Of a stretch of 34,938 nucleotides of DNA, positions 5,765 through 21,206 are shown one piece after another. Numbering within the stretch: the stretch's first letter is position 1; each line of letters starts with the position of its first letter. The translations under genes were made by a program, and so were the position numbers. The notes under the pieces were generated by a model. That model was not told the DNA's origin, did no database searches, and was given only the letters and a program-made list of their open reading frames with translations. Where the stretch lies: assembly GCA_903855135.1 (NCBI GenBank), contig CAINYB010000023.1, positions 1 through 34,938 of the forward strand, in the 5' to 3' direction. The stretch is from an uncultured bacterium (lineage in GTDB: Bacteria; Patescibacteriota; Patescibacteriia; UBA1558; GWA2-36-10).

Positions 5765-5782
5765 AAAAATATCACGAACAAA

Positions 5783-5810
5783 ATCCCGCCCGGCGAATGC
5801 CGGGCGGGAT
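5783..5810. terminator. hairpin between convergent genes, likely bidirectional terminator
   Basis: Perfect 12-bp arms (ATCCCGCCCGGC / GCCGGGCGGGAT) around a GAAT loop, placed 18 bp after the M23 stop and 9 bp before the end of the convergent cohesin gene. AT-rich sequence flanks both sides (TAAAATATTTTATATTTT on plus). The position and strong stem fit a shared terminator, although the T runs are not ideal. Confidence 0.7.
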
Positions 5811-5819
5811 TAAAATATT

Positions 5820-7562
5820 TTATATTTTCTCTATATCCCTAATTTCTTTTTCAACGCTTAACTCTGTCCTATTTAAAGCAGCTTGTAATTTCTTAATCAC
5901 TCTCTTTTCCGCTGCTGTCAAAGCACGACGATTTTTAGCTTTTTCTAGGGTCTCTATTTGTTCTCTGATATCATCACGCAAAGTATCAAAAGTTTTGTGT
6001 AGTTTATCTTCAGCTGATCTAGTTTCTTTCTTTAACTTACTCTTAAATAACAAGACTTTGCGCCAACCAAAGAGGCTCAACAAAGCTAAGGCAATAATCA
6101 AAGCCACTAAGATGATAACTATTGATAATAAATTAATAGCTTTTGTGCCAAAAGTAGTAGCGTCTGATTGTTTCACTACAACTGTGCTTTTAGCTGAAGT
6201 ACTAGATTGAGCACCATTCTCAGCTACTGCGCTTGCCCAGATGCTATAAACACCTTTTTTCAAACTATCTTTCAAGGTAAAAGAGAAGTCGCCATTAGCA
6301 TCAGTAGTAACTAGTTGACTGACAGCTTGATCACCGTCCCGCTCGACCCAAACTGTGACTTGTGAATTTGGTTTAGCCCGACCACGGATAATCAAATCGT
6401 CACCAACAAGCAAATTAGCTGGATAATCAGTAATAATCGGCGCCTCCAAAGGCTTTACTTCTAAACTAACAGAATCAGCTAAATAATTACCCGCCTGGTC
6501 AAAAGCTTTGATAAATAAAGTATGAGTACCGACGCTCAAAGCTGATGTGCTATAAGTTTCGCCGCTCTTGCCTGTCCAATTTTGTTCAGCGCCGTTGTCA
6601 GTCTTGATCACAAAATGATCAATGCCAGAAGAAGCATCAGTAGCGGTCAAAATAAATTTACCAATCGGATCAGTCAGATCGCGTTCGTTGGCTTGAATAT
6701 TAAAATCACTTGGCTTAGTAGTATCTATTTGGAAACGGAAATGTGATACTGGCCCCCAACCATTAGCATTTTTGAGTTGTAAATGAAAATACCACACACC
6801 ATCTTCGACTCCAGTCAAAGCCTTGCTACTAATCGCTGGTTGATAAACTACACTTGGTTGTGAATTTTGATTTTCTCCGTATAAAATCCTGACCGCTGTC
6901 GTGCCCGCCGGCAAAGACCAAGTAAACCTTGGGTCTGAATTGTTATACCATTTGCCTGGATCAGGGTGAGTATTAGAACTAATAGCTGAGCTGACCGTTT
7001 TATTTTGTGGCTCTTCTGCGGGTGGCTGATTTGGCTCCTCAGGAGCTTCTGTTTGCCCACCACTGATATCAAATTGAGCTTGGCCGGAACCAGTCAAAAT
7101 ATTAGTACCAAAACCATCGTTAGCACGAATAGAGGCTGAAGCAAAAGAAACAGAAGCAGTGCCAGATTTTTTAGCCCTAAAAACTATGCCTAACACTTTA
7201 CCAGCTGATCCTGTGAAGCCAGGAGTTGGCACGCCGCCATTAAAGCTAATCGAACCAGCACCATTAGAAAAAGATGGCTCTTCTACCCATAAAGAAAAAA
7301 TCGAACCAGACTTTGAGACTGACATAACCTCTAAAGTATCAGTAGGGAAATAAATAGTGCCGTCAACATTGTTAATCGCTTGTTCTTGCGTATTTACTTT
7401 GACACTGACGTTGATCAGATCGCCGGTTTTAAAACTGCCGGCCGCTGGTGAAAAATAAATAGTAGCGGCATGAGAGATTTTTGGTAAACAAAAAAGAGCC
7501 AATGCAAAAACAAAAGATAAGAAAATATTTACTTTCATTTGTTTTTGTTTTTGACCTATCAT
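5820..7562 (-). CDS. cohesin-domain surface protein with Ig-like domains and TM anchor (cohesin 1)
   Basis: 580 residues. Signal peptide 1-32 (ends KISHA); cohesin domain about 33-168, with TIYFSPAAGSFKTGDLINV, the NVDGTIYFP strand and GVPTPGFTGSAGKVL as family landmarks; a Pro/Glu linker; three beta-sandwich domains at about 193-285 (FN3-like), 290-372 (ends with IKAFDQAGNYLADS) and 375-465 (Ig-like, PNSQVTVWVERDG); TM about 474-498; and a charged helical tail predicted as coiled coil. Cohesins bind dockerins, and a dockerin protein is encoded 3.5 kb upstream in the same direction. The layout puts the cohesin outside the cell and the coiled coil in the cytoplasm. It is a close paralogue of the next gene (7673-9901) but lacks its C-terminal lysozyme-like domain. 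It has its own promoter upstream. ATG at 7562 is kept because its paralogue starts with the same GQKQK. Confidence 0.88.
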   Translation of the reverse strand: MIGQKQKQMKVNIFLSFVFALALFCLPKISHAATIYFSPAAGSFKTGDLINVSVKVNTQEQAINNVDGTIYFPTDTLEVMSVSKSGSIFSLWVEEPSFSNGAGSISFNGGVPTPGFTGSAGKVLGIVFRAKKSGTASVSFASASIRANDGFGTNILTGSGQAQFDISGGQTEAPEEPNQPPAEEPQNKTVSSAISSNTHPDPGKWYNNSDPRFTWSLPAGTTAVRILYGENQNSQPSVVYQPAISSKALTGVEDGVWYFHLQLKNANGWGPVSHFRFQIDTTKPSDFNIQANERDLTDPIGKFILTATDASSGIDHFVIKTDNGAEQNWTGKSGETYSTSALSVGTHTLFIKAFDQAGNYLADSVSLEVKPLEAPIITDYPANLLVGDDLIIRGRAKPNSQVTVWVERDGDQAVSQLVTTDANGDFSFTLKDSLKKGVYSIWASAVAENGAQSSTSAKSTVVVKQSDATTFGTKAINLLSIVIILVALIIALALLSLFGWRKVLLFKSKLKKETRSAEDKLHKTFDTLRDDIREQIETLEKAKNRRALTAAEKRVIKKLQAALNRTELSVEKEIRDIEKI

Positions 7563-7672: not shown

Positions 7673-9901
7673 TTAATTTGTTACTTTTGGACTAGTAGGT
7701 GCTATATTAGCTGTGGCTACTTTGTGACGACTAAGCCATTCAGCCACCGCCATCACACCCTCTTGCCAAGAAGCAAAATATTTAATTACTGTTCCTGTGT
7801 TGCCAATATTACCAGGATTCATGGTGCTGACTGCTAAGCCAACTGTACCGAAATTTGACTCTTCTTGCATCAAAGCTAAAATCAAACGATAGTCAGCCTT
7901 ATAAACATTAGCAGCTGCTAAAATCATCGCTGCTGTCACCGGACTATTGAAAGCTATTTTTTGAATATACTCATCTACTTCAGCCGCGGTAGTCAAAACC
8001 GGCATATTATTTAAAGTATGGCTAACTTTTTGCTCATGCAAAGGATCAGCTGAATAAGCAGTGATATCATAATCACCTAAAATAAATTTGAGCTGTAATT
8101 TATCTAAGCTAGGCTGAGCAACAACTGGCGCTGGAGCAACTACTACTTCTGGTACAGGTACTGGAGCTGGAGCAGCAATTGGTGCCACCGGCATCATCAC
8201 CGGCGCTGGAGCCGGGTTCACTGGAACACTAGTGATATCAGTCACGCTAGCAACTTGTTTGGCTTTGACTGTTTTGACAGTGTCTATTTGAGCACGAATA
8301 TCATCACGCAAAGCATCAATCATTTTATTTAATTTTTCTTCAGTTTGTTGATTTTCCTTCTTTGGTCTGTTGCTCTTAAATAATAAAATCTTACGCCAAG
8401 CAAATAAGACGAGTAATAATAATAAAATAACGAGTGCAACTAATACAATGGCTAAAGATAAAAAGTTTATTGCTTTCATACCTAAATTAAGCATGTCTAA
8501 TTTTTTCACTAGTATAGATAATTTACCAGAGTTGCCAGACTGAGCACCGCGGCTATCGGTAGCACTTGCCCAGATATTATAATTTCCATTTTTCAAACCT
8601 TTTTTCAAAGTGAAAGTAAAGTTTCCCTCGGCATCACTGCTGACTGTTTCCATCGTCGCCTTCTCGCCTTCTTTTTCTATCCAAATCAAAACTTCTGAAT
8701 TTGGTCTAGTCTTACCACTCAAAACTAAATCTTCGCCCGCGACTAATTCTTCTGGGTAGTCACTAAATATTGGTGCCTCTAAAGACTGCACCTCTAAGCT
8801 AACTGAATCCGCTAAATAATTACCCAGCTTATCAAGTGCTTTGACAAATAAAATATGTACACCTGAAGTCAAAACTGGTGTGCTATAAACTTCGCCACTC
8901 TTACCTGTCCAAGCTTGCTCTTCGCCGCTGTCAATCTTCACTACAAAATGATCGATGCCAGAGCCTTCGTCTGTAGCAGTAAAAACAAATTTGCCAATCG
9001 GATCAGTCAACTCACGCTCACCGTCTGGTTTGATACTAAAATCTTTTGGTTTTGAAGTATCGATTTGAAAACGGAAGTGAGTGATAGCTCCCCAGCCACT
9101 AGCATTTTTTAATTGTAAATGAAAATACCATGCGCCATCTTTGAGGTCAGACAAACTTTTACTACTGACTGCGGGCTTGTAGGAAACAGTGGGCTGTGAA
9201 TCTGATTTTTCGTCATAAGAAATTTTTACTTCTGTGACTCCAGATGGCAAGGACCAAGAAAAATTAGCATTTGCCAGATTATACCACTGATTTGGATCAG
9301 GGTGAGTATTGGAACTAATAGCCGAACTGACGGTTTTATTTTGTGGCTCTTTCGGAGTTTCTTTAGGTGTTTCTTTTGGCTTTTCTACTGGTTGCACCGC
9401 TGTGCCAGTGATGACAAACTGCGCTTGCCCAGAGCCGGTCAAAATATTGGTACCAAAACCATCGTTAGCCCGGATAGAAGCTGAAGAAAAAGAAACTGAA
9501 GCAGTACCAGCTTTTTTAGCCCGAAAAACTATACCTAATACTTTGCCAGCTGATCCTGTAAAACCAGGTGTTGGTACACCACCGTTGAAACTGATTGAGC
9601 CCGCGCTATTAGAAAAATTTGGGTCCTCCACCCACATCGAAAAGATCGAACCTGACTTTGAAAGAGAGATAACTTCTAAGGTGTCAGTAGGGAAATAAAT
9701 CGTACCATCGACATTGTTTATCGCCTTGTCTTGAGTGTTTACTTTGATGCTGACATTGATCAGGTCGCCGGTTTTAAAACTGCCGGCCGCTGGCGCAAAA
9801 TAAATAGTAGCGGCTTGCGATATTTTTGGTAAACAAAAAAGGACAAAAGTAAAAACAAAAAATAAAAAAATATTATTAATTCGTTTTTGTTTTTGCCCCA
9901 T
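7673..9901 (-). CDS. cohesin-domain surface protein with TM and C-terminal lysozyme-like domain (cohesin 2)
   Basis: 742 residues. The first ~500 match cohesin 1 closely: signal peptide 1-31 (ends ISQA), cohesin about 32-168, a Pro/Lys/Glu linker with PKET repeats, three beta-sandwich domains, and TM about 480-505 (LSLAIVLVALVILLLLLVLFAW). After a coiled coil comes a Pro/Ala/Val-rich linker (PAPAPV type) and a final ~130-residue domain with SPVTAAMILAA, LALMQEESNFG, NPGNIGNTG and SWQEGVMAVAEWLSRHK. I read this as a lysozyme-superfamily, glucosaminidase-like domain; the Glu before Ser-Asn-Phe sits where soluble lytic transglycosylases carry their catalytic Glu. By simple topology this domain would be on the cytoplasmic side of the TM, which is odd for a wall enzyme. 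The same domain occurs in the gene at 14044-14901. It has its own promoter. Confidence 0.87.
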   Translation of the reverse strand: MGQKQKRINNIFLFFVFTFVLFCLPKISQAATIYFAPAAGSFKTGDLINVSIKVNTQDKAINNVDGTIYFPTDTLEVISLSKSGSIFSMWVEDPNFSNSAGSISFNGGVPTPGFTGSAGKVLGIVFRAKKAGTASVSFSSASIRANDGFGTNILTGSGQAQFVITGTAVQPVEKPKETPKETPKEPQNKTVSSAISSNTHPDPNQWYNLANANFSWSLPSGVTEVKISYDEKSDSQPTVSYKPAVSSKSLSDLKDGAWYFHLQLKNASGWGAITHFRFQIDTSKPKDFSIKPDGERELTDPIGKFVFTATDEGSGIDHFVVKIDSGEEQAWTGKSGEVYSTPVLTSGVHILFVKALDKLGNYLADSVSLEVQSLEAPIFSDYPEELVAGEDLVLSGKTRPNSEVLIWIEKEGEKATMETVSSDAEGNFTFTLKKGLKNGNYNIWASATDSRGAQSGNSGKLSILVKKLDMLNLGMKAINFLSLAIVLVALVILLLLLVLFAWRKILLFKSNRPKKENQQTEEKLNKMIDALRDDIRAQIDTVKTVKAKQVASVTDITSVPVNPAPAPVMMPVAPIAAPAPVPVPEVVVAPAPVVAQPSLDKLQLKFILGDYDITAYSADPLHEQKVSHTLNNMPVLTTAAEVDEYIQKIAFNSPVTAAMILAAANVYKADYRLILALMQEESNFGTVGLAVSTMNPGNIGNTGTVIKYFASWQEGVMAVAEWLSRHKVATANIAPTSPKVTN

Positions 9902-10118: not shown

Positions 10119-11006
10119 TTAAGAATTTGTTTTTTTCTTTTTTTTCTTTTGCCAGATGAAATAAATCACAGCAATTAATACTAAACCGATAAACCATGGC
10201 TGTAAATAGAAGGCTTTAGTATTTTTAAACTCTACCGTTTTAGCATTACCAGCTTTATCGACGGCTTTGACAAAAATCTTACTCTTTAAGCTTTGGTCAG
10301 CTAAAATGTATGGACTAACCGTAGTCACAAAATCTTTATCACCCTCTTTGACTTCATAGTGATCGATGCCACTTTCTTTGTCTTCAGCAAAAAAGCTAAT
10401 AAAATATTTGCCGTCAAAAGTGTAAGGATCTTTGCCTAACTGAATAATCAAATTTTTTGGTGAGATTTTATCACTCGTTAAATTTTCTTGCCAAGTGTTT
10501 TGCGCTGGCACGCTGCCGTCAGATTCTAAAACTGTTAAGGCTACTTTTTGGTTTTGAGCTGAAGTCTTGGTACCTTTACCGTCATTTAAATATAAAATTG
10601 AATCGTCACTCAAATAAAAATTTGCCTGACCAGCTTTTTTGGCTAAAAAAGCGACTTTGACAATACTACCACCCATGGTGCCACTGGGCACACCACCAGT
10701 AAACATGATCTTGCCCTCAATGCTAGTAAAATCTGGGGTTCGTGGCCAAAGCTTAAACACTGAATCCCCAGTACTGACATCTTGAACTTGTAAAAAGGCT
10801 GGGTCAAAAATAACTAAGCCATCCATGGCATTAATTTTTTGATTTAAATCTTCTAGCTTCAGTTCAGCCACAAAAACATCACCGACTCTCACCTGACCAG
10901 TAGACAAAACAAATGAAGAAGTAGCTGCTTGAGCAAAGTTAGCGGCAAATATCAAAGCTAGCCCGAAAAAAGTAAAGCTAATAATTTTGAAATTTTTCTT
11001 AAACAT
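10119..11006 (-). CDS. short cohesin-domain membrane-anchored protein (cohesin 3)
   Basis: 295 residues. Signal peptide 1-27 (ends NFAQA); cohesin domain about 28-160 (GQVRVGDVFVAEL, NAMDGLVIFDPAFLQV, FTGGVPSGTMGGS); one Ig-like domain about 178-262 with the SGIDHYEV motif also seen in cohesins 1 and 2; TM about 268-286 (PWFIGLVLIAVIYFIW) followed by QKKKKKK. The basic tail right after the TM fixes the topology: cohesin outside, short tail inside. It is the simplest of the three cohesin proteins and lies 16 bp downstream of the dockerin gene, so receptor and ligand are probably co-expressed. Cohesin assignment is by pattern and by similarity among the three; binding specificity is unknown. 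Confidence 0.87.
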   Translation of the reverse strand: MFKKNFKIISFTFFGLALIFAANFAQAATSSFVLSTGQVRVGDVFVAELKLEDLNQKINAMDGLVIFDPAFLQVQDVSTGDSVFKLWPRTPDFTSIEGKIMFTGGVPSGTMGGSIVKVAFLAKKAGQANFYLSDDSILYLNDGKGTKTSAQNQKVALTVLESDGSVPAQNTWQENLTSDKISPKNLIIQLGKDPYTFDGKYFISFFAEDKESGIDHYEVKEGDKDFVTTVSPYILADQSLKSKIFVKAVDKAGNAKTVEFKNTKAFYLQPWFIGLVLIAVIYFIWQKKKKKKTNS

Positions 11007-11022
11007 CTTTTTTAGTTATTTT

Positions 11023-13899
11023 TTAATCGTAAACTTCACCATAGTAATAAAGTAAGATAGAAAAGTCAACAGAATCAACTTTAACATCTTTATTAATATC
11101 AACATAAGGATTGCTAAATGGTGAGGCTGTTCTCCAGAAATATAGCAAGATAGAGAAATCAATAGAATTCACTCTATTATCTTTGTTAAGATCAGCGATA
11201 TGAACCGGACCATTGTCTGGTGGTGGTGGATTGACTGGTGGTGGAGTTCCACCTCCGCCTCCTCCGCCGCCGCCACCATTGTTATTACATTGGCCACAGT
11301 CAGCCGAGCAACTATTACAGGTTTCTCCACCATTACAAGAGCCGTCACCACAAGACGGACCGACTACGCCAGACTCGGCTATGAACTGTTCAGCTGATGC
11401 TGCCCAATTCACTTCATTTAAAGCTCTGGCTTTTAATTTAAACCAATAAGTACCAGCCGTCGGAACATCTAAACTCAAGGAGCGACTTAAAGTCTCGCCC
11501 GGATTAATATATTCAGTCATAGACTTATAGTCAACGTCATCATTACCACCACACTGATTAGCTTCACTATCTACCACACAATAAACATAGTAGAAGTCGC
11601 TACCAGCTGTACCTTTGTTCATAAGCTTAACACTAGCAGTCACCACAGGTATGATACGATCAGCCATAGAAAGAATCAAAACGTCAGCTGGTGAGCTAGA
11701 AATTCTCCAATAATCATTAGTATTGATTGTTTTACCACTTTCAACTTCAGTAGCCACTTGTGTTTCCCAAGTACCACCAACAGCGTCAGTTGGTACCGTA
11801 TAGTTATAGTGATAGACACCAGCTGAATCTCTGATCATAGTAGTGCCACCTGGTAGTTTTTCTGAACCAGCTGAATCAGTGATAGTGATGATTGGCAATG
11901 AAGCAGAGTCAGTTGGAACAGATTCATAATTCAAGGTTGTCAATCTCACACGATAAGCTTGGCCAGTAGTAGTTTCACCGAAATCAGACATTGTCACTAC
12001 CCAGCCAGCTTGTTGGCTAGATAGAGTAGCTCTGGTTTCTATAGCTGAAGCCAATGATGAAGAAGCATTTTCTACTACACTATTTGTATTAGCATTTACC
12101 AAAGTAGTAATAGAAGACGAAGCGTTGCTAATAGTATTATTAATATTTGTATTTAAAGTTGAAGTAGCGGTATCGACATAAGATTCGGTAGCAAGTTCAC
12201 CGCCATCAGTCAAACTCTTGCCAGTCAATAATCTGGTGGTATAGCCCCAAACTGAAGAGGCAATGCCAGAAGTAATATTAGCAATGGTGTCTAAACTTCT
12301 ACCGCTATAGTTCCAAATTGAAAATGGAATAGTAGCTGCCAATGATGATGAAGCAGTGGCAATGGCGCTATTAGTGTTAGCATTTACCATGGTAGTAATG
12401 GAAGAGGAGGCGTTATTAACTATACTATTAGTGTTAGCGTTGACTAAAGTTGTGATCGACGATGAAGCATTATTAACTACACTATTAGTGTTAGCATTTA
12501 CCATGGTAGTAATAGAAGATGAAGCGTTGCTAATAGTATTATTAATATTTGTATTTAAAGTTGAAGTAGCGGTATCGACATAAGTTTCAGTAGCAAGTTG
12601 TCCTCCATCAGTTAGGCTCTTGCCGGTTAATAATCTGGTGGTGTAAGACCACACTCCGCTAGTAATATTAGTGATCGTATCTAAACTTCTGCCGCTATAA
12701 TTCCAAACTGATAGCGGGATAGTTAAAGCCAATGATGAAGAAGCCGTAGCAATAGCACTATTAGTATTAGCATTTACCAAGGTGGTAATAGAAGACGAAG
12801 CGTTGCTAATAGTATTATTAATATTTGTATTTAAAGTTGAAGTAGCGGTATCGACATAAGTTTCAGTAGCAAGTTGTCCGCCATCAGTCAAGACTTTGCC
12901 GGTCAATAGTCTAGTTGTGTAATTCCACACTGAATAGGCAATATTAGAAACTGCTCCATTTAAATTACTAACTAAATGCTCGCCCATACTGCCAACACTG
13001 AAGACAGTTGACGAAGCTATGTTCCAAACACCAGTGGTAATATTAGTGATCGCATCTAAGCTTCTACCGCTGTAGTTCCAAACTGAAAAGGGAATAGTAG
13101 CTGACAAAGAAGATGAGGCTGTCTGGATAGCACTATTAGTATTTGCATTCACCATCGTGGTGATCGATGATGAGGCGCTGTTGATATTGCTATTAATCAT
13201 GCTTGTGACTGAAGAAGAAGCATTGTTAATAGTATTATTAATATTTGTATTTAAAGTTGAAGTAGCGGTATCGACATAAGTTTCTGTAGCAAGCTCTGTA
13301 TTGTCAGTCGTCAAGTGTTTACCAGTCAATAGTCTAGTAGTATAAGACCAAACTCCAGAAGTAATATTAGCGATAGTGTCTAGACTTCTGCCGGTATAAT
13401 TCCAAATTGAAAAAGGCAGGGTAGCTGATAAAGAAGATGAAGCTGTCTGGATAGCACTATTAGTATTTGCATTCACCAAAGTTGCTACTGCGTCAGCTAC
13501 TTCAGAAGTAGAGCCAGTGGTCGTGGCGATGATAAAAGTCTTATCTCCCCTGACCAAATCTACACCCGCTGTACCACAAGACATCGTAGCTGGCCAAGTA
13601 CCTAAAGTCGCGGAACCAGCAAAATTATAATAATGCCAACCATTAGCATCTTCGGTCATCAAAACATTATTTACTATCAAAGAGCCACTAGGATCCCAAA
13701 CATTAATATTACAGTCAGCCGTTGATGGTGTATAATCATCTTCATAAATAAATTCACCAATAGTAAAAGAAGTGCTTGGTGGATAAACAGTAGCGGCGGA
13801 GGCTGTAAAAACGAATAAAAAAACAAAGACAAACACCATGAGAAAATATGTTTGTAGCTGTTTTAAATTATGATAAATTTTTCTTGTTTTTTGAGACAT
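11023..13899 (-). CDS. large secreted repeat protein with C-terminal type I dockerin
   Basis: About 958 residues from the ATG at 13899. The ORF track starts 14 codons earlier at 13941, but that would overlap the tatA-like gene by 74 bp, and the later ATG gives a better signal peptide (MSQKTRK, then FLMVFVFVFLFVFTASAA). The middle holds four copies of a VWNYSGRSLDTI...GVWSYTTRLLTG unit, alternating with Asn/Ser/Thr-rich segments (NASSSITTMVNANTNS, 19-residue period) that look like a coiled-coil stalk. Then come a beta-rich region, a Cys-rich CGDGSCNGGETC motif, a poly-Gly and Pro linker, and two calcium-loop repeats, DLNKDNRVNSIDFSILLYFW and DINKDVKVDSVDFSILLYYY, which form a type I dockerin. 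There is no catalytic domain. Best reading: a fibrous surface protein that docks onto the cohesins encoded just downstream. Confidence 0.87.
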   Translation of the reverse strand: MSQKTRKIYHNLKQLQTYFLMVFVFVFLFVFTASAATVYPPSTSFTIGEFIYEDDYTPSTADCNINVWDPSGSLIVNNVLMTEDANGWHYYNFAGSATLGTWPATMSCGTAGVDLVRGDKTFIIATTTGSTSEVADAVATLVNANTNSAIQTASSSLSATLPFSIWNYTGRSLDTIANITSGVWSYTTRLLTGKHLTTDNTELATETYVDTATSTLNTNINNTINNASSSVTSMINSNINSASSSITTMVNANTNSAIQTASSSLSATIPFSVWNYSGRSLDAITNITTGVWNIASSTVFSVGSMGEHLVSNLNGAVSNIAYSVWNYTTRLLTGKVLTDGGQLATETYVDTATSTLNTNINNTISNASSSITTLVNANTNSAIATASSSLALTIPLSVWNYSGRSLDTITNITSGVWSYTTRLLTGKSLTDGGQLATETYVDTATSTLNTNINNTISNASSSITTMVNANTNSVVNNASSSITTLVNANTNSIVNNASSSITTMVNANTNSAIATASSSLAATIPFSIWNYSGRSLDTIANITSGIASSVWGYTTRLLTGKSLTDGGELATESYVDTATSTLNTNINNTISNASSSITTLVNANTNSVVENASSSLASAIETRATLSSQQAGWVVTMSDFGETTTGQAYRVRLTTLNYESVPTDSASLPIITITDSAGSEKLPGGTTMIRDSAGVYHYNYTVPTDAVGGTWETQVATEVESGKTINTNDYWRISSSPADVLILSMADRIIPVVTASVKLMNKGTAGSDFYYVYCVVDSEANQCGGNDDVDYKSMTEYINPGETLSRSLSLDVPTAGTYWFKLKARALNEVNWAASAEQFIAESGVVGPSCGDGSCNGGETCNSCSADCGQCNNNGGGGGGGGGGTPPPVNPPPPDNGPVHIADLNKDNRVNSIDFSILLYFWRTASPFSNPYVDINKDVKVDSVDFSILLYYYGEVYD
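12050..13490. repeat. internal direct repeats in the dockerin protein gene
   Basis: A block of about 60 bp (plus strand GCGTTGCTAATAGTATTATT onward through the GTATCGACATAAG end) recurs nearly unchanged starting near 12122, 12524, 12800 and 13220. Further copies of a 57-bp unit encoding NASSSITTMVNANTNS lie between 12380 and 12520. Near-identity at silent positions points to recent duplication or gene conversion, and copy number may vary between strains. Confidence 0.8.
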
Positions 13900-14043: not shown

Positions 14044-14901
14044 TTATTTTGTTTTACTTGTTTTTTCAAGGTCTGCTACCTTCTCAGTGCTAAGTAAATT
14101 ATCAGCTGGCACTGTAGTATTTTCTTCTATATTAACAATCTCTTGTGGTTTTGTTTCTGGTGTAATAATTTCTTCGGTGCTAGTAGCATTTTCTACTGGT
14201 GTCACTGTCTCTTCTTTGGCCTCTTCTTTATTTTGCTCCTGTTTTGTCTCTATTTCTTGATTCAAAATACGATGACGACTGAGCCATTCAGCGACTGCCG
14301 TCACACCTTCTTGCCAAGAAGCATAGTTACGAATCGCTGCACCAGTATTACCGACGTTGCCTGGATTCATCGTATCGACTGCTACGCCAGCAGTACCAAA
14401 ACGAGAATCAAGCTCCATGATAGCCATCAATAAACGAATATCTACCGGATAATCCTGCACAGCATTTAAAATCATCATCGCTGTCACTGGACTTGAGATA
14501 GCTTTAGAATCAATATACAAATCAATTTGCGAACTATCACTCATCGCTCCCATAGTTTGCAAAATATTAGCAATCTTTTGCTCGTGCAAAGGATCAGTAG
14601 CATATGTAGAAATATCATAAGCACTCATACAAGCTGTAGCACCTTCATAAATTACAGGTGTGTTCTTAACAGCTGTCATGCCAGCAGCAATCATGGTAGA
14701 AATGTCAGTATTAGTACCAGCAGCTACTTGAGTAGCACTAAGCAATAAACGTAATTTATATAAGGTATCATTGACCTGGGCTATTTCTATGTCTGTTGAA
14801 TTCATGGTGTTTAAATCACCAACCATAAAAGCTTGCGCTTTCGAATTTGTCAAAAAAATTAATTTATTTTCTAACAACTGAATTAAATATTCTAAATTCA
14901 T
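14044..14901 (-). CDS. lysozyme-like-domain protein without signal peptide
   Basis: 285 residues with no signal peptide or TM. Residues 1-55 (MNLEYLIQLLENKL...) are helical. Residues about 95-215 form the lysozyme-superfamily domain also found at the end of cohesin 2; both share YDI-x-x-Y-x-x-DPLHEQK, SPVTA-x-MIL, NPGN-x-GNTG and SWQEGV-x-AVAEWLSRH. At the active-site position cohesin 2 has MQEESNFG while this protein has MELDSRFG, so the presumed catalytic Glu is Asp here and activity may be reduced or lost. The tail (about 220-285) is Glu/Thr-rich and probably disordered. It lies between the GTGxGQ-repeat gene and the second tatA, so export as a passenger of a Tat substrate is possible. A similar domain architecture occurs in tail-associated proteins of some large phages, from memory. 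Confidence 0.72.
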   Translation of the reverse strand: MNLEYLIQLLENKLIFLTNSKAQAFMVGDLNTMNSTDIEIAQVNDTLYKLRLLLSATQVAAGTNTDISTMIAAGMTAVKNTPVIYEGATACMSAYDISTYATDPLHEQKIANILQTMGAMSDSSQIDLYIDSKAISSPVTAMMILNAVQDYPVDIRLLMAIMELDSRFGTAGVAVDTMNPGNVGNTGAAIRNYASWQEGVTAVAEWLSRHRILNQEIETKQEQNKEEAKEETVTPVENATSTEEIITPETKPQEIVNIEENTTVPADNLLSTEKVADLEKTSKTK

Positions 14902-14920: not shown

Positions 14921-17581
14921 TTAATACCACATGAGCTGCTTAAAGCACTCCACCGCACTAGCACGATTAATCCACAAATATTTCAAATGATCGGCCGTCT
15001 CGATGATTTCCATACGATTACCGATCACCGCTGTCGGTGCTAAATACGGATACTGACCAGCACCATGTACCCAACTGGTCACTAAATCAAAATAATAAAT
15101 TCTTTGCGTGTTATCTTTAGTAAAATAAATTCTATCATTTCCATCATAAGCATAATTAGAACCAGTGGTTAAAGTTTCTATTTGAGGGGTGATAGACAAC
15201 ATCTCCCAACGATTGGTAGAGATATTATAGCGATCCCAGCCAAAACTAGCACCACCACGAGGTGAGTACAAATATTTACCAGAAATAGTAGAATCAGATG
15301 TGCCAAAAATAGCCATTAAGCTAGTGCCTAAACCACGAACCGGTACATCCAAAATCGTATAAGAAGTAGAGTTGGCTACTGGTAAAGTACCAGCAACTGT
15401 AATAGTCAAAACTGTGGCTGTATTAGAACTCACGATACCCTCGATGTCAGCTTGACCAGCACCAGCTGTTTTTTTGACACGACGACCAGTGTGAATATTG
15501 ACAGCCCAAGTTTTACTAGAGTCAGCAATAGCAGTAGTTGTCTGGCCAGCGCCAGTAGCAATACCTGAATCAAGCGCACCATGAGCTGCTCGCTCTGCTA
15601 TCACATAACGACCAATACCATTGGCAGGTGTAAGGGAAGGAGCAGTTTTAAAGGTCAAGGTAGTAGCAGTATTAGAAGCGATTTCCATACCGACTGACAC
15701 CAAAGCACCTGTACCAGCTGGCGGGTTAGTAATAGCAAAGTAGCAGATATAGTTAGCCCAACCATTGACGGTCCAATTTTTTGAAGCATCAGTCAAGGTG
15801 GTCGCTGAGTGACCAGTGAAAGTAGCATTAGAGCCCGGCGTACCACCCATAGTATAAGTAAATACTGTCGCACTAGTGACCGACACTACTTGAGTAGTGA
15901 TATTATAGGTAGCTGCATCACCACCAGTCGCACCCATCACTTTGAAATAATCACCTACTTTAAGACGATGAGGGTTAACTGTCGTACAAGTAGCGGTCGT
16001 ACCTGATCTGGTCAAAGTATTGATAGCCTGTGGGCGACGAGCAGCCACACCAGATGAATTACAAAGTATCACCACGCCTTGTCTTGGGCTACCATAATCG
16101 ACGATATTAGAGTTAGCCGCCATGTCAGCATCAATACTATGGCCGATCATAGCTGATTGTCCGCCAAGTATTAAATAAATTTTATTGTGGTTATTAATAA
16201 TCATATAACCACTAGTAGTATCAGGTGTTGTGTCCCAATTATTATCTGGATACACTGTCAAAGTAGTAGCATTATTACTAAAAATCTTTCTTTCTTGTCC
16301 CATGCCCGTACCAGAGATGATGGCTACGCGATAATTTTTCCAACGATCGTTTGACCAAGACTGAGCAGAATCTACCAAAGTAGTAGAGGTAGCAGAAGTG
16401 ACAATGCCAGCATCGTAGCCTTCAATACGATATTTGGTAGTCGCATCGGGTGCAGTAGTGGTGGTCCCCACCCAGGTCAAAGTAGTACCTGTATTAGCAG
16501 TAATTTTACGTAATCTATCGGCCCCACCAGCTGGTATAGTACCAGAAACAAAACGCACCCACCTACCAACAAACTCATTGGTGGCCCAATTTTTTGTGCT
16601 ATCTACCAAAGTAGTGGTCGTACCACTAGTAGCTGTGCCTGCTTCCCACAAAGAAGCATTGCGCACCGTGCGCTCAATCACACCATCGGTACCGACAGCA
16701 GTCATCAAAGCAGAAGTGGCAGAGCGAATATACCAAGTATCAGAGGCAATGCTATAAAATTGTAAAGTAAAAAATGGTGCCGCTGCTGCAGAAGAAGCCA
16801 AGAAGATGCCACCGCATTCAACCACAAAATGAGACGAGCTATCTGGATTTGTATCCCAAGCACTGTTGACGGTGATAACTGAACTTTCTATTTGGTATAC
16901 AGAGCCGACACCAGCGCCTTCAGCCACAAAGGCTGGACTTGGTACGGCCGGATTGGTATCATAATCAATCTCATAACCTAAAATATCAGCATAAGTAAAG
17001 ACTGTGGTGGTATGGTGCAAAATACGCCTCACTTGGCCGATACCCGCACCAGCAATGATACGAAATTGATAGCCAGCATATTGATTAATAGCTGCGGTAA
17101 TACGCGTATCAGTAAAAGTCAAACCAGCAGAAATCGCCGTCATAATACCAGTGTAAGCTACCGTTGGCTCCGCCACGCTGACGATAGTGCGACGCTGACC
17201 AGCACCAGTACCAGACTCAATGCGGATATCAAATCCTTTGAGCACCTGCCCAAAATAAGCCGGCGCTGTAATAGTAGTAGCACCACCAGCCAAAGCTCGT
17301 GCCTCAAAACCATAAGCACCAGAAAATTTCATAGATGCCCAAGTAGCTGGAGCAATCGGCGGTGAACTAAGCTGCATATAAGTATCAGTCCAGGTATCGT
17401 AACGATAAAAACCAGTGGCTGATATCAAATAATAAATATAGCGCCCGTGAATCGGATTACCAATCGCACTATCAGAAGCAGTTGAAGTACTGATAGCAGT
17501 AGAAACAGCTGGCGCAGTACGACACCACTCCCAAATAGGGGTATCGACTTGTACACGTAAACTATTTGTTGTAAGACTCAT
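14921..17581 (-). CDS. large GTGxGQ-repeat beta-rich protein, phage tail/fibre-like, no signal peptide
   Basis: 886 residues, no signal peptide, no TM, very rich in Thr, Ala, Ser and Gly. It contains about seven degenerate copies of a ~60-residue module whose core reads SGTGxGQxRxIxSNTATTLT, often followed by W-x-T-x-PD-x-T-S-x-Y-x-I (clear in ISGTGMGQERKIFSNNATTLT). The same module occurs four times in the neighbouring Tat-signal protein. The N-terminal part (GRYIYYLISATGFYRYDTWTDTYMQL) and the C-terminal part (NRWEMLSI...DRIYFTKDNTQRIYYFD) look like Kelch-type or other propeller blades. Such modules are, from memory, common in phage tail fibre and virion proteins. It lies 17 bp after the Tat-signal gene. 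No enzyme motif is seen. Export is unexplained unless it travels with a Tat substrate. Confidence 0.6.
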   Translation of the reverse strand: MSLTTNSLRVQVDTPIWEWCRTAPAVSTAISTSTASDSAIGNPIHGRYIYYLISATGFYRYDTWTDTYMQLSSPPIAPATWASMKFSGAYGFEARALAGGATTITAPAYFGQVLKGFDIRIESGTGAGQRRTIVSVAEPTVAYTGIMTAISAGLTFTDTRITAAINQYAGYQFRIIAGAGIGQVRRILHHTTTVFTYADILGYEIDYDTNPAVPSPAFVAEGAGVGSVYQIESSVITVNSAWDTNPDSSSHFVVECGGIFLASSAAAAPFFTLQFYSIASDTWYIRSATSALMTAVGTDGVIERTVRNASLWEAGTATSGTTTTLVDSTKNWATNEFVGRWVRFVSGTIPAGGADRLRKITANTGTTLTWVGTTTTAPDATTKYRIEGYDAGIVTSATSTTLVDSAQSWSNDRWKNYRVAIISGTGMGQERKIFSNNATTLTVYPDNNWDTTPDTTSGYMIINNHNKIYLILGGQSAMIGHSIDADMAANSNIVDYGSPRQGVVILCNSSGVAARRPQAINTLTRSGTTATCTTVNPHRLKVGDYFKVMGATGGDAATYNITTQVVSVTSATVFTYTMGGTPGSNATFTGHSATTLTDASKNWTVNGWANYICYFAITNPPAGTGALVSVGMEIASNTATTLTFKTAPSLTPANGIGRYVIAERAAHGALDSGIATGAGQTTTAIADSSKTWAVNIHTGRRVKKTAGAGQADIEGIVSSNTATVLTITVAGTLPVANSTSYTILDVPVRGLGTSLMAIFGTSDSTISGKYLYSPRGGASFGWDRYNISTNRWEMLSITPQIETLTTGSNYAYDGNDRIYFTKDNTQRIYYFDLVTSWVHGAGQYPYLAPTAVIGNRMEIIETADHLKYLWINRASAVECFKQLMWY

Positions 17582-17598
17582 ATAATATTATTTTTATT

Positions 17599-19236
17599 TT
17601 AGCTAAAAGTTAATTGACTTCTGATAGAATCATTATAGACCTTGTGTGAAATATCACCAAATTTTTGTTGCGCTGCATAAGAGCCGATAGCAGCCATACT
17701 AGAAATAGAGGTGACGGTACCAACTGTGGAATCAGTACCTAAACCAAGACGTGGCATACCAGCTATTTTTCCTACATCAAGGTTAGCAGCGGGTAAAACA
17801 CATATTTCATAATACCTAGTTGGAAATAAGTAAATAGCATAAGTAGAGCTTAAATCTGGCCAAGTAGTCCAAGCAGTGGAAATCGTCAAAGTGGTAGCAG
17901 TGTTAGAACTAATATGTCTAACTTGTCCGTAACCGGTGCCACTAGTAATTTTGATTAAATAATTTGCCCAGCCATTGACGGTCCAGTTTTTTGTAGCATC
18001 TACTAACAAGACGTCAGTGGTAGATGGCGTAGAAGCGGTACCTGAATCATTAGCATCTATCGGCATGGTGCGAATAGCATAGGTGGAAGTAGAGTCTGGA
18101 ATAATTGACCAAAGACCATTGATAGTCAAAGTGTCTACGCTATTACTAGCAATTCTCAAAGCTTGGCCAACACCAGTACCGCTAGTTATTTCGACTAAAT
18201 AATTAGTCCAAATATTATCTGTCCAGACTTTAGAAGTGTCTTGTAGGACACCTAAGCCCTGCGTACCAGTTGCTGTACCGCTGTCTTGGATCATAGTTTC
18301 ACCCACTCTAGCTGTCCAAGGTGTAGATAGAGTCAAAACTGTAGCTGTATTGGAAGCTATCAAACGAACTTGCTCTTCTCCCAAAGAGCTGGTAATACGT
18401 ACGGCATAATTAGCCCAAGCATTTGTGGTCCAAGCTTTAGCGGTATCCGCAACTGTCAATAAACTTTGGTTACCTAAAGTATTAGCAAAAACAGAAACAG
18501 CTGTACGGATATCATAAATGCCATAAACAGAAGTAGCGTCTGGCAAAGTTGTCCAAGCATCCTGTAGAGTCAAGGCTTGCGAAGTGTTGTTAAGTATCAT
18601 ACGAACTTGACCAACTCCGGTACCACTGGTAATTTTTACTGCAAAATATGCAAATTTATCTACTAGCCAAGAAGCATATTTGGTAGTATCTACTAATTGG
18701 GTCAAGCTTTGGGTGCCAGTAGCTATGCCTGTATCAATAGCCCCATTAAGATTTTCTCCCCAAGCATCTATTGTTACTCTTCGTCTATTAGCTACATCCA
18801 CTGTTGCTCGTGACTCCAAAAGCTTCACCATACGTTGCAACATGATAATAGCATCTTCGCTAGACGGATTAATCCTTGTGTTATTAGCATCTTTTAATCC
18901 TGCAGCATCAGAATCACCAGCTTTTGCGACCATTAGATTGGAGCCAGAAAAAGTAAATTTATTTGAATTGGTGACTAAAGTGTCAGTATTGGTCTTAACA
19001 CTAGCTAAACTAGTCTCTGTTGCTGGGCTGATACGGACATTAGCATCATTTTTTAAGCCCACGACACTGGTAGCTGGCGTGCCACCCATCACCAAAGCGC
19101 TAGTTTTTTTAGGAAATAAAGTAGCACCAAAAACTCCAAGACCAAGGGCTCCTAAAGACTTCAAAAACAAGCGACGCTTATGGTCTGCCACTACATCATC
19201 TTTTATTTTAGTTTTAGAAGCAAGAGCTTGCTGCAT
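17599..19236 (-). CDS. Tat-signal secreted protein with four GTGxGQ repeats (long form)
   Basis: 545 residues. Residues about 19-48 form a twin-arginine signal (HKRRLFLKSLGALGLGVFG, cleavage near KKTSA), which fits the R-R-x-F-L-K consensus. Next comes a module shared with the following gene (TPATSVVGLKN, RISPATETSLASVKTNTDTL, NKFTFSGSNL, VDVANRRRVTIDAWG). Then four ~65-residue repeats with ITSGTGVGQVRMI-type cores, and a C-terminal segment (LGTDSTVGTVTSI, IGSYAAQQKFGDISHKVYN) also shared. In effect it is the short paralogue at 19262-19996 with a repeat block inserted. The N- and C-terminal modules look like those in phage tail-fibre proteins. No cofactor-binding motif is visible, so export through Tat may reflect folding or complex formation before export. 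Confidence 0.75.
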   Translation of the reverse strand: MQQALASKTKIKDDVVADHKRRLFLKSLGALGLGVFGATLFPKKTSALVMGGTPATSVVGLKNDANVRISPATETSLASVKTNTDTLVTNSNKFTFSGSNLMVAKAGDSDAAGLKDANNTRINPSSEDAIIMLQRMVKLLESRATVDVANRRRVTIDAWGENLNGAIDTGIATGTQSLTQLVDTTKYASWLVDKFAYFAVKITSGTGVGQVRMILNNTSQALTLQDAWTTLPDATSVYGIYDIRTAVSVFANTLGNQSLLTVADTAKAWTTNAWANYAVRITSSLGEEQVRLIASNTATVLTLSTPWTARVGETMIQDSGTATGTQGLGVLQDTSKVWTDNIWTNYLVEITSGTGVGQALRIASNSVDTLTINGLWSIIPDSTSTYAIRTMPIDANDSGTASTPSTTDVLLVDATKNWTVNGWANYLIKITSGTGYGQVRHISSNTATTLTISTAWTTWPDLSSTYAIYLFPTRYYEICVLPAANLDVGKIAGMPRLGLGTDSTVGTVTSISSMAAIGSYAAQQKFGDISHKVYNDSIRSQLTFS

Positions 19237-19261
19237 TGCTTAAAATTTTTATTTTTATTTA

Positions 19262-19996
19262 TTAGGAAAAAGTAAGATTGCGACGAATAGCATTGGCATA
19301 AACATCATGGGCCACATCACCATACATTTGCTGAGCCGCATAAGAACCTATCGTCACCACATTGGTCACCGAAGTCACAGTACCAACAGTCGAGTCAGTA
19401 CCCAAGGCCACACGCGGACAACCAGCGCTCGTACCAGTACCGACGTTGACGTTTGTGCCCCAAGCATCTACGGTCATTCTTTGCCTGTTAGCCACATCAA
19501 CTGTAGCAGCCGATTCTAGTAATTTCACCATACGACGCAAAAGAATCACCGCGTCTTCACTAACTGGATTAATTCTTTCATCATCAATGTCCTTGAGGCC
19601 AACTACATCTGAGCCACCAGAGCTTTGCACTAAAAGGTTTGAGCCAGAAAAAGTAAATTTATTTGAATTGGTGACCAAAGTATCAGTATTGGTCTTCACG
19701 CTAGCTAAACTAGTCTCTGTTGCTGGGCTGATACGGACATTTGAGGCGTCTTTAATACCGACTACACTAGTAGCTGGTGTCCCACCCATTACTAAAGCAT
19801 GCGTCTTTTTCGGAAACATGGTGGCACCGAGCGCACCAAGTCCAATCACACCTAAAGATTTCAAAAACAAACGACGTTTGTGGTCGTCCACTTTAGCTAA
19901 ACTGTTTTGTGGAGAAATTTTAAAAGTCGAAACACTATTTGGTGTCGACTTTTTTGCTTTATTGCTAAAAAAATTTTTGAGAGAAAATACGGGCAT
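19262..19996 (-). CDS. Tat-signal secreted protein, short form
   Basis: 244 residues. A long basic n-region (about 38 residues, many Lys/Ser) precedes the twin-arginine motif HKRRLFLKSLG and a hydrophobic stretch, with likely cleavage after KKTHA. The mature part has the same N-terminal module as the long form (TPATSVVGIKD, RISPATETSLASVKTNTDTL, NKFTFSGSNL) and the same C-terminal segment (LGTDSTVGTVTSV, IGSYAAQQMYGDVAHDVYA), but no GTGxGQ repeats between them. It lies 25 bp upstream of the long form and 75 bp downstream of the small membrane protein that follows tatA. The match between signal type and neighbouring Tat genes is strong evidence of a functional link. The biochemical role is unknown. 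Confidence 0.77.
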   Translation of the reverse strand: MPVFSLKNFFSNKAKKSTPNSVSTFKISPQNSLAKVDDHKRRLFLKSLGVIGLGALGATMFPKKTHALVMGGTPATSVVGIKDASNVRISPATETSLASVKTNTDTLVTNSNKFTFSGSNLLVQSSGGSDVVGLKDIDDERINPVSEDAVILLRRMVKLLESAATVDVANRQRMTVDAWGTNVNVGTGTSAGCPRVALGTDSTVGTVTSVTNVVTIGSYAAQQMYGDVAHDVYANAIRRNLTFS

Positions 19997-20456: not shown

Positions 20457-21206
20457 TTATTTTTTCTCTTCCTCGACTAGGAAGACTCGGTGTCTATTTG
20501 TCAGGCGATCATAGAGAATGGTTAGCTCATATAAAGCCACTAAAGGCACCGACATTATGATTAATGATACCCCATCTGTGGGCGGAAGTAAAGAAACAAT
20601 CACTACGATAAAGGCATAAGCGACTCGCCTTTTTTGTACTAAAAACTGTCGGGTAACAATATTAAATTTTAAAAAAATAGACATGATCAGAGGAAACTGA
20701 AAGAGCACACCGAGTAAAGCCGCGGTGATGGCTAACTGTGATAAAAACAAACCAATGTCCCAAATGTTTTGTAGACCAAAAGAAACATTGAGGCTAGCTA
20801 GCATTTGTAAACCCCAATAAAGAGTGAAAAAGCCGTAGGCAAAACCTAAAGCAAACAAAAAGAAAGATAAAGGCAAGGTCCAAAATAAAGCCTTAAACTC
20901 TCTGTGAGAAACTGCCGGCTTCAAAAAAGCATAAAACTGATAAAGTGCAAAAGGCGTAGTCGCAAAAATAGCGAGAAACAAAGCAATGTCCACCGAGACA
21001 TCTAAAAACTGAAGCGGTGAAGTGACAGCAATCACCACGTCTTTTAAATTAAAAGCATTGATAAAAAGCTTAATCACATGACCAGCGCCAAAAAAACCAG
21101 TGATAAATATCACAATAAAAAAAATAGCAATATGATAAACACGGCGCCAAATATCATTGAGATAGGGCCCATAGTCTTTAATGATTTTGTCTATTTTTCC
21201 GGCCAT
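20457..21206 (-). CDS. tatC: Sec-independent translocase core subunit TatC
   Basis: 249 residues with about six TM helices, normal for TatC. TatC binds the twin-arginine signal and starts export of folded proteins. Landmarks are the N-terminal HIAIFFIVIFITGFFGAG helix, the conserved ITSPLQF-type segment (AVTSPLQFLDV), FALYQFYAFLKPAVSHRE leading into the cytoplasmic loop, and QFPLIMSIFLKFNIVT with VIVSLLPPTDG near the C-terminus. It heads a minus-strand block that includes tatA and two Tat-signal proteins. Many CPR genomes have few Tat substrates, so local clustering suggests this translocase serves mainly these proteins. Confidence 0.94.
   Translation of the reverse strand: MAGKIDKIIKDYGPYLNDIWRRVYHIAIFFIVIFITGFFGAGHVIKLFINAFNLKDVVIAVTSPLQFLDVSVDIALFLAIFATTPFALYQFYAFLKPAVSHREFKALFWTLPLSFFLFALGFAYGFFTLYWGLQMLASLNVSFGLQNIWDIGLFLSQLAITAALLGVLFQFPLIMSIFLKFNIVTRQFLVQKRRVAYAFIVVIVSLLPPTDGVSLIIMSVPLVALYELTILYDRLTNRHRVFLVEEEKK

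Follow-up and report, generated by a model that had tools for sequence, protein, structure and literature searches.

The window analysed here, by which we mean the whole stretch of 34,938 nucleotides (nt) from an uncultured member of the Patescibacteriota (contig CAINYB010000023.1, assembly GCA_903855135.1), carries on its minus strand a unit of four genes in which a secreted protein ending in a dockerin domain is followed by three cohesin proteins (Table 1). The source genome measures 810 kb and is 96.6% complete, a small genome which among Patescibacteria fits a small, probably host-dependent cell, and the nearest named relatives of the first cohesin protein (295 amino acids, aa) belong to Paceibacterota and Liptonbacteria. 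The gene for this 295-aa protein starts 16 nt downstream of the dockerin gene and is followed by those for cohesin proteins of 742 and 580 aa, so that the whole unit holds one matching dockerin and three cohesin proteins. Stems between and within the four genes were weak only, and the single strong hairpin, after the last gene, is the probable end of the transcription unit.

Table 1. Features of the dockerin-cohesin unit, in positions of the window (ORF, open reading frame).
Feature	Position	Strand	Basis or remark
Secreted dockerin-bearing cargo protein, 972 aa	11023..13941	-	ORF, Pfam, locus comparison, repeat analysis
Type I dockerin domain, extreme C-terminus of cargo	11038..11202	-	PF00404, family profile, PDB relatives
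Calcium loop 1, DLNKDNRVNSID; D1 N3 D5 N9 D12 present	11158..11193	-	Coordinates from residue numbers
Calcium loop 2, DINKDVKVDSVD; D1 N3 D5 D9 D12 present	11065..11100	-	Coordinates from residue numbers
Short cohesin anchor, 295 aa	10119..11006	-	ORF, Pfam, locus comparison
Cohesin domain of short anchor	10530..10916	-	PF00963 2e-6; family profile
Transmembrane helix and KKKKKK tail of short anchor, predicted cytoplasmic tail	10122..10211	-	Prediction
Long cohesin anchor 1, 742 aa	7673..9901	-	ORF, Pfam, locus comparison
Cohesin domain of 742-aa protein	9410..9811	-	Alignment, family profile; 90% identical to modelled 580-aa domain
Long cohesin anchor 2, 580 aa	5820..7562	-	ORF, Pfam, locus comparison, tail alignment
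Cohesin domain of 580-aa protein, modelled	7062..7466	-	AlphaFold2 pLDDT 96.7; Foldseek
Strong terminator-like hairpin, 13 bp with 10 G-C	5782..5811	-	Directly 3' of last cohesin gene

The dockerin-bearing protein, referred to below as the cargo protein, has 972 aa when read from an upstream ATG and 958 aa if the ATG at 13899 is taken as the start. It is laid out as a signal peptide, an N-terminal beta domain, repeats rich in threonine, serine and asparagine (T/S/N-rich), an MG2-like domain, a cysteine-rich and glycine-rich linker and the C-terminal dockerin. The repeats are 19 residues long with a modest to weak periodicity of 3.7-3.85 residues, features which would be compatible with a helical stalk but do not establish the fibrous coiled coil suggested by a first-pass annotation of this DNA, and a PHROGs search of the protein gave weak unknowns only. 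The first-pass annotation also had the 958-aa form ending in a type I dockerin, and this was borne out by PF00404 (Dockerin_1), which matched the C-terminus at 2.6e-8 (34.4 bits against a cut-off of 22.9). A profile of the dockerin family, of which the window sequence is itself a part, matched at 8.7e-29, and a search of the PDB with a profile of the window dockerin and four relatives retrieved the solved type I dockerins 2y3n, 1daq and 5nrm (best 5.4e-7). Two F-hand calcium loops, each followed by a helix, are present as in type I dockerins; both loops fit D-x-N-x-D-x(3)-[N/D]-x-x-D, and alignment revealed no loss at any of the ten calcium-ligand positions.

Among 43 dockerins from loci of this kind in Patescibacteria the calcium-ligand positions were nearly invariant, and both loops were complete in 33, a loop being counted as complete when its five positions were each D, N or S (D or E at position 12). 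The helix after the loop is of the DFSI(L/M) type in both repeats of nearly all 43, and a tryptophan near the end of the second of these helices is conserved. The two repeats resemble each other (median 12 of 20 positions identical, 13 of 20 in the window), a likeness that recalls dockerins with a dual binding mode and may point to one here. In 42 of the 43 proteins no more than four residues follow the dockerin. The rest of the genome held one further dockerin-like match, marginal and of a different kind (G000 contig C6:1842-1961; L002:796-2094, minus), in a 432-aa protein with a Por_Secre_tail, the sorting domain of type IX secretion (1.6e-13, NYPNPFNPTTTIDF). The gene for this protein lies between genes for a glycosyltransferase and a lysyl-tRNA synthetase; it looks acquired from a bacterium of the FCB group and is perhaps a clue to the host.

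The 295-aa protein consists of a signal peptide, a cohesin, an Ig-like domain of the OmpL47 type with the motif SGIDHYEVKEG, a transmembrane helix at about residue 266 and a lysine tail ending WQKKKKKKTNS. Its cohesin was matched by PF00963 at 28.5 bits (cut-off 24.1), in agreement with the first-pass claim of a neighbouring cohesin with a membrane anchor and lysine tail; prediction of the structure of this protein with AlphaFold2 from the single sequence reached a predicted local distance difference test score (pLDDT) of 38.7. The annotation had further claimed that two more cohesin proteins follow. The 742-aa and 580-aa proteins were missed by the PF00963 search, falling below the cut-off, and are cohesins nonetheless: in both, the first domain could be aligned with that of the 295-aa protein and with eight cohesins from four relatives, and the fold of the 580-aa domain is that of a cohesin. 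Modelled by AlphaFold2 on the cohesin alignment, this domain adopted the jelly-roll cohesin fold, and in a Foldseek comparison with the PDB the best 50 matches were all cohesins, with TM-scores up to 0.79. The nearest were type I cohesins, and the matches include cohesin-dockerin complexes, among them the OlpA and OlpC complexes 3ul4 and 4dh2.

Both long proteins begin with a signal peptide and the cohesin, followed by Ig-like domains including Big_13 and a transmembrane helix (near residue 483 in the 742-aa and residue 478 in the 580-aa protein). The 580-aa protein closes with some 75 residues predicted to form a helical tail in the cytoplasm (window 5820-6044), whose pattern E...E..F..L...I...L...KEI recurs in most of 31 aligned tails of long anchors; this conserved tail is a possible site for a cytoplasmic partner or a signalling element. 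The 742-aa protein has the start of a coiled-coil tail, then a proline-rich linker and a glucosaminidase-like domain (7724-7924) which it shares with a 285-aa protein that has no signal peptide (14044-14901). By the predicted topology the glucosaminidase-like domain would be cytoplasmic, an odd place for a wall hydrolase. Signal peptides and the positive-inside rule indicate that the cohesins themselves would face outward. Across 84 cohesin proteins, short and long alike, N, S, W, P and an NDGxGT motif are conserved, some of which may serve the fold. Since there is one dockerin and two kinds of cohesin with the same invariant residues, the alignment suggests that short and long cohesins receive the same partner.

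To place the unit within the phylum, 333 genomes of Patescibacteria were surveyed with profiles built from this family of dockerins and cohesins, dockerin matches of at least 50 bits being taken as strong. A family-type cohesin was located within 5 kb of 42 of the 49 strong dockerins, where a chance mean of 0.023 each would predict about one, and these 42 were spread over 39 genomes and 28 families. With the Pfam models only, PF00404 was found in 129 and PF00963 in 99 genomes; 67 genomes had the two together, where 38 would be expected (p = 2.5e-12, uncorrected for kinship of the genomes). The 43 loci compared gene by gene, on profile matches and mechanical ORFs, were in part picked for a nearby cohesin, so that 42 of 49 is the unbiased figure for linkage. 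A cohesin lay downstream on the same strand in 40 of the 43, with a median gap of 25 nt (60 nt or less in 30 of the 40), and 32 of these 40 loci had two or more cohesins; of the three exceptional loci one was at a contig end and two had cohesins upstream. Usually the dockerin gene comes first, followed by the short and then the long cohesin. Four more loci with this order came from a scan of named genomes, the short cohesin having a transmembrane helix in three of the four and the long cohesin having one as well. Overall, 74 of the 84 cohesin proteins had a transmembrane helix beyond residue 60, and the short ones mostly ended in a lysine- or arginine-rich (K/R) tail. In L052 (G323:C2) cohesin and dockerin lie within one chain, and L072 (G274:C3) has two complete dockerin-cohesin units on one contig, one of them with four cohesins. 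A locus from a Diapherotrites archaeon (L033) was discarded as a relative, since its match to the 295-aa protein was confined to the Ig-like domain and it had no cohesin or dockerin. The pairing is a conserved operon and a phylum-wide module of one dockerin with two or more cohesins.

Cohesin and dockerin are best known from cellulosomes. None of 42 operon dockerin proteins contained a glycoside hydrolase (GH) or carbohydrate-binding domain; Ig-like domains prevail (Big_6 in 24, Big_13 in 15), with MG2 in four and fn3 in four. The window cargo, with its long T/S/N-rich repeats, forms a subtype with those of L038, L066 and L071, to which it is 36-42% identical; most other operon cargo proteins are about 20% identical to it. 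The first-pass annotation had noted no plant-polymer hydrolase in the window, and this extends to the whole genome for GH9 and GH5, for which the search controls worked; GH48 was not found in the genome either, a weak negative as no control gave a signal. Dockerins on carbohydrate-active enzymes were thus lacking, and the three cohesin proteins of the genome have one cohesin each and no carbohydrate-binding module (CBM), where a cellulosome would have a multi-cohesin scaffoldin with a CBM. Both modules of a non-cellulosomal pair are present in one genome without cellulolytic enzymes, and we rejected a cellulosome for want of any enzyme.

We consider it likely that the unit encodes a non-cellulosomal, calcium-dependent cohesin-dockerin tether by which a secreted protein of the cell surface would be held at the membrane. 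The cargo protein would be exported through Sec and fold outside the cell, where its C-terminal dockerin would bind two calcium ions and dock non-covalently onto the cohesins of the membrane-anchored proteins whose genes follow directly. The short anchor would keep the cargo near the membrane, while the long anchors would contribute spacers of Ig-like domains and a helical tail in the cytoplasm. Cargo modules differ from genome to genome (Ig-like, fibronectin-like or, in the window, long T/S/N-rich repeats) and dockerin and cohesin stay constant, from which we infer that the pair may be an exchangeable surface mount. Because of the Ig-like and fibrous cargo and the WxLIP-type neighbours found in many relatives, the mount would most likely serve adhesion or surface-layer proteins in contact with other cells. 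The proposal of the first-pass annotation that the pair is used for surface display and not for cellulose breakdown is supported by the conserved operon, the membrane-anchored cohesins, the C-terminal dockerin and the non-enzymatic cargo. Three observations weigh against the tether: the recognition positions of the dockerin (S-I / S-V, then FSI) are unlike those of characterised cellulosomal dockerins, the 5 kb around seven of the 49 strong dockerins, some of them at contig ends, lacked a cohesin, and 217 bases separate the short from the first long cohesin gene in the window, a gap which leaves co-transcription of all four genes uncertain. A bolder extension, which we think unlikely, would make the unit a phylum-wide contact device whose swappable adhesive fibre is calcium-docked on both anchors and whose conserved long-anchor tail reports docking or pulling inward, which would let the cell maintain its contact with the host and sense it as well.

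The position of the dockerin gene directly before two membrane-anchored cohesins in one unit favours assembly on the same cell over binding in trans, in which the dockerin protein would be released and act as a cell-cell glue by docking to cohesins carried by sibling cells or by others. Gene adjacency is silent on which cell the partners meet on, a chain with both cohesin and dockerin, as in L052, would permit chaining, and dockerin-cohesin is listed among the possible syntrophy features of anaerobic methanotrophic (ANME) archaea (PMC9012536); we nevertheless regard binding in trans as quite improbable. That the domains no longer pair, with the dockerin capping the chain end and stabilised by calcium and the cohesins serving as Ig-like spacers bound elsewhere, would agree with the 62 genomes that have PF00404 and no PF00963 match, but is made very doubtful by the strong, repeated linkage of the family-type pair and by residues outside the calcium ligands that are invariant. 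A minimal cellulosome or glycan-capture device, suggested by the fame of the domains and by the guess that the essential dockerin protein of Southlakia epibionticum targets host glycans (PMC10633639), is hardly credible beside cargo free of GH and CBM, a genome lacking GH5 and GH9, and single cohesins with no multi-cohesin scaffoldin in the window.

Next to the window unit are TatC, of the twin-arginine translocation (Tat) system, and proteins with Tat signals, and no WxLIP-type protein is found beside it. Clear twin-arginine signals (RRLFLKSLG) were seen in two proteins near TatC (17599-19996 and 20457-21206, minus strand). Within the same cluster an 886-aa protein (14921-17581, minus) has repeats and no signal peptide, and gave a short match to the phage tail fibre family phrog_529 (1.9e-7). 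TatC and proteins of this Tat-signal/repeat cluster also lie near the dockerin-cohesin unit in L038 and L066, and the recurrence of TatC in all three suggests that the T/S/N-rich-repeat subtype may also serve to display repeat proteins exported by Tat.

No description of the three-gene Patescibacterial unit was found in the open-access literature, and subscription papers may have one. Searches of that literature for dockerin or cohesin together with Patescibacteria returned only a mention of S. epibionticum and otherwise unrelated rumen, biogas and Omnitrophota studies. Non-cellulosomal pairs are known elsewhere, and it is the conserved three-gene form in Patescibacteria that appears to be undescribed. 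The non-cellulosomal pair of Archaeoglobus fulgidus, which we take to be AF2375/AF2376, likewise combines cohesin and dockerin without plant-polymer enzymes, and its cohesin (2xdh) matches the 580-aa domain with a TM-score of 0.78. Binding is established for the A. fulgidus pair, which has served in artificial surface display (PMC9705933). It differs from the present case, where there is a three-gene unit with two kinds of membrane-anchored single cohesins and a cargo usually without a cohesin, conserved over 28 families of another phylum. The dockerin and cohesin proteins of ANME archaea are also non-cellulosomal and extracellular, and have been discussed for syntrophic contact (PMC9012536), but they are scaffoldin-like with up to five cohesins plus a dockerin, whereas here each anchor has one cohesin and there is usually one dockerin client.

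The WxL/WxLIP complexes of Firmicutes offer a further comparison, as in many relatives the gene preceding the dockerin gene (position -1, 16 loci) belongs to a cluster of which one tested member matches WxLIP_PGBD (PF06030) and a second (L029) does not; the window unit differs from these relatives in being flanked by TatC and Tat-signal proteins instead. In L029, L030 and L059 small secreted beta proteins ending ADTITY.C..N lie beside a WxLIP-like membrane protein upstream of the dockerin unit. These small proteins have a WxL-like appearance, and the single one tested matches no Pfam family.

For protein display and host attachment in Patescibacteria a two-part, calcium-switchable mount is a concrete candidate in at least 39 of the 333 genomes, and the tether as proposed predicts that calcium chelation strips the cargo. 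In S. epibionticum, also a member of the Patescibacteria, the dockerin protein SEML1_0315 is reported to be essential and envelope-associated, and its authors proposed glycan targeting (PMC10633639); SEML1_0315 is like the window cargo in being a dockerin protein of a Patescibacterium and might alternatively be read as a cohesin-bound surface protein and not a glycan binder. With the clostridial cellulosome the unit has in common the type I dockerin loops and surface anchoring by a cohesin protein, but here there are no enzymes, scaffoldin or CBM, and the anchor is a transmembrane helix with a K/R tail in place of the clostridial S-layer homology domain or sortase. In Patescibacteria cohesin and dockerin thus probably hold proteins on the cell surface, which adds a phylum in which such pairs are common outside cellulose degradation.

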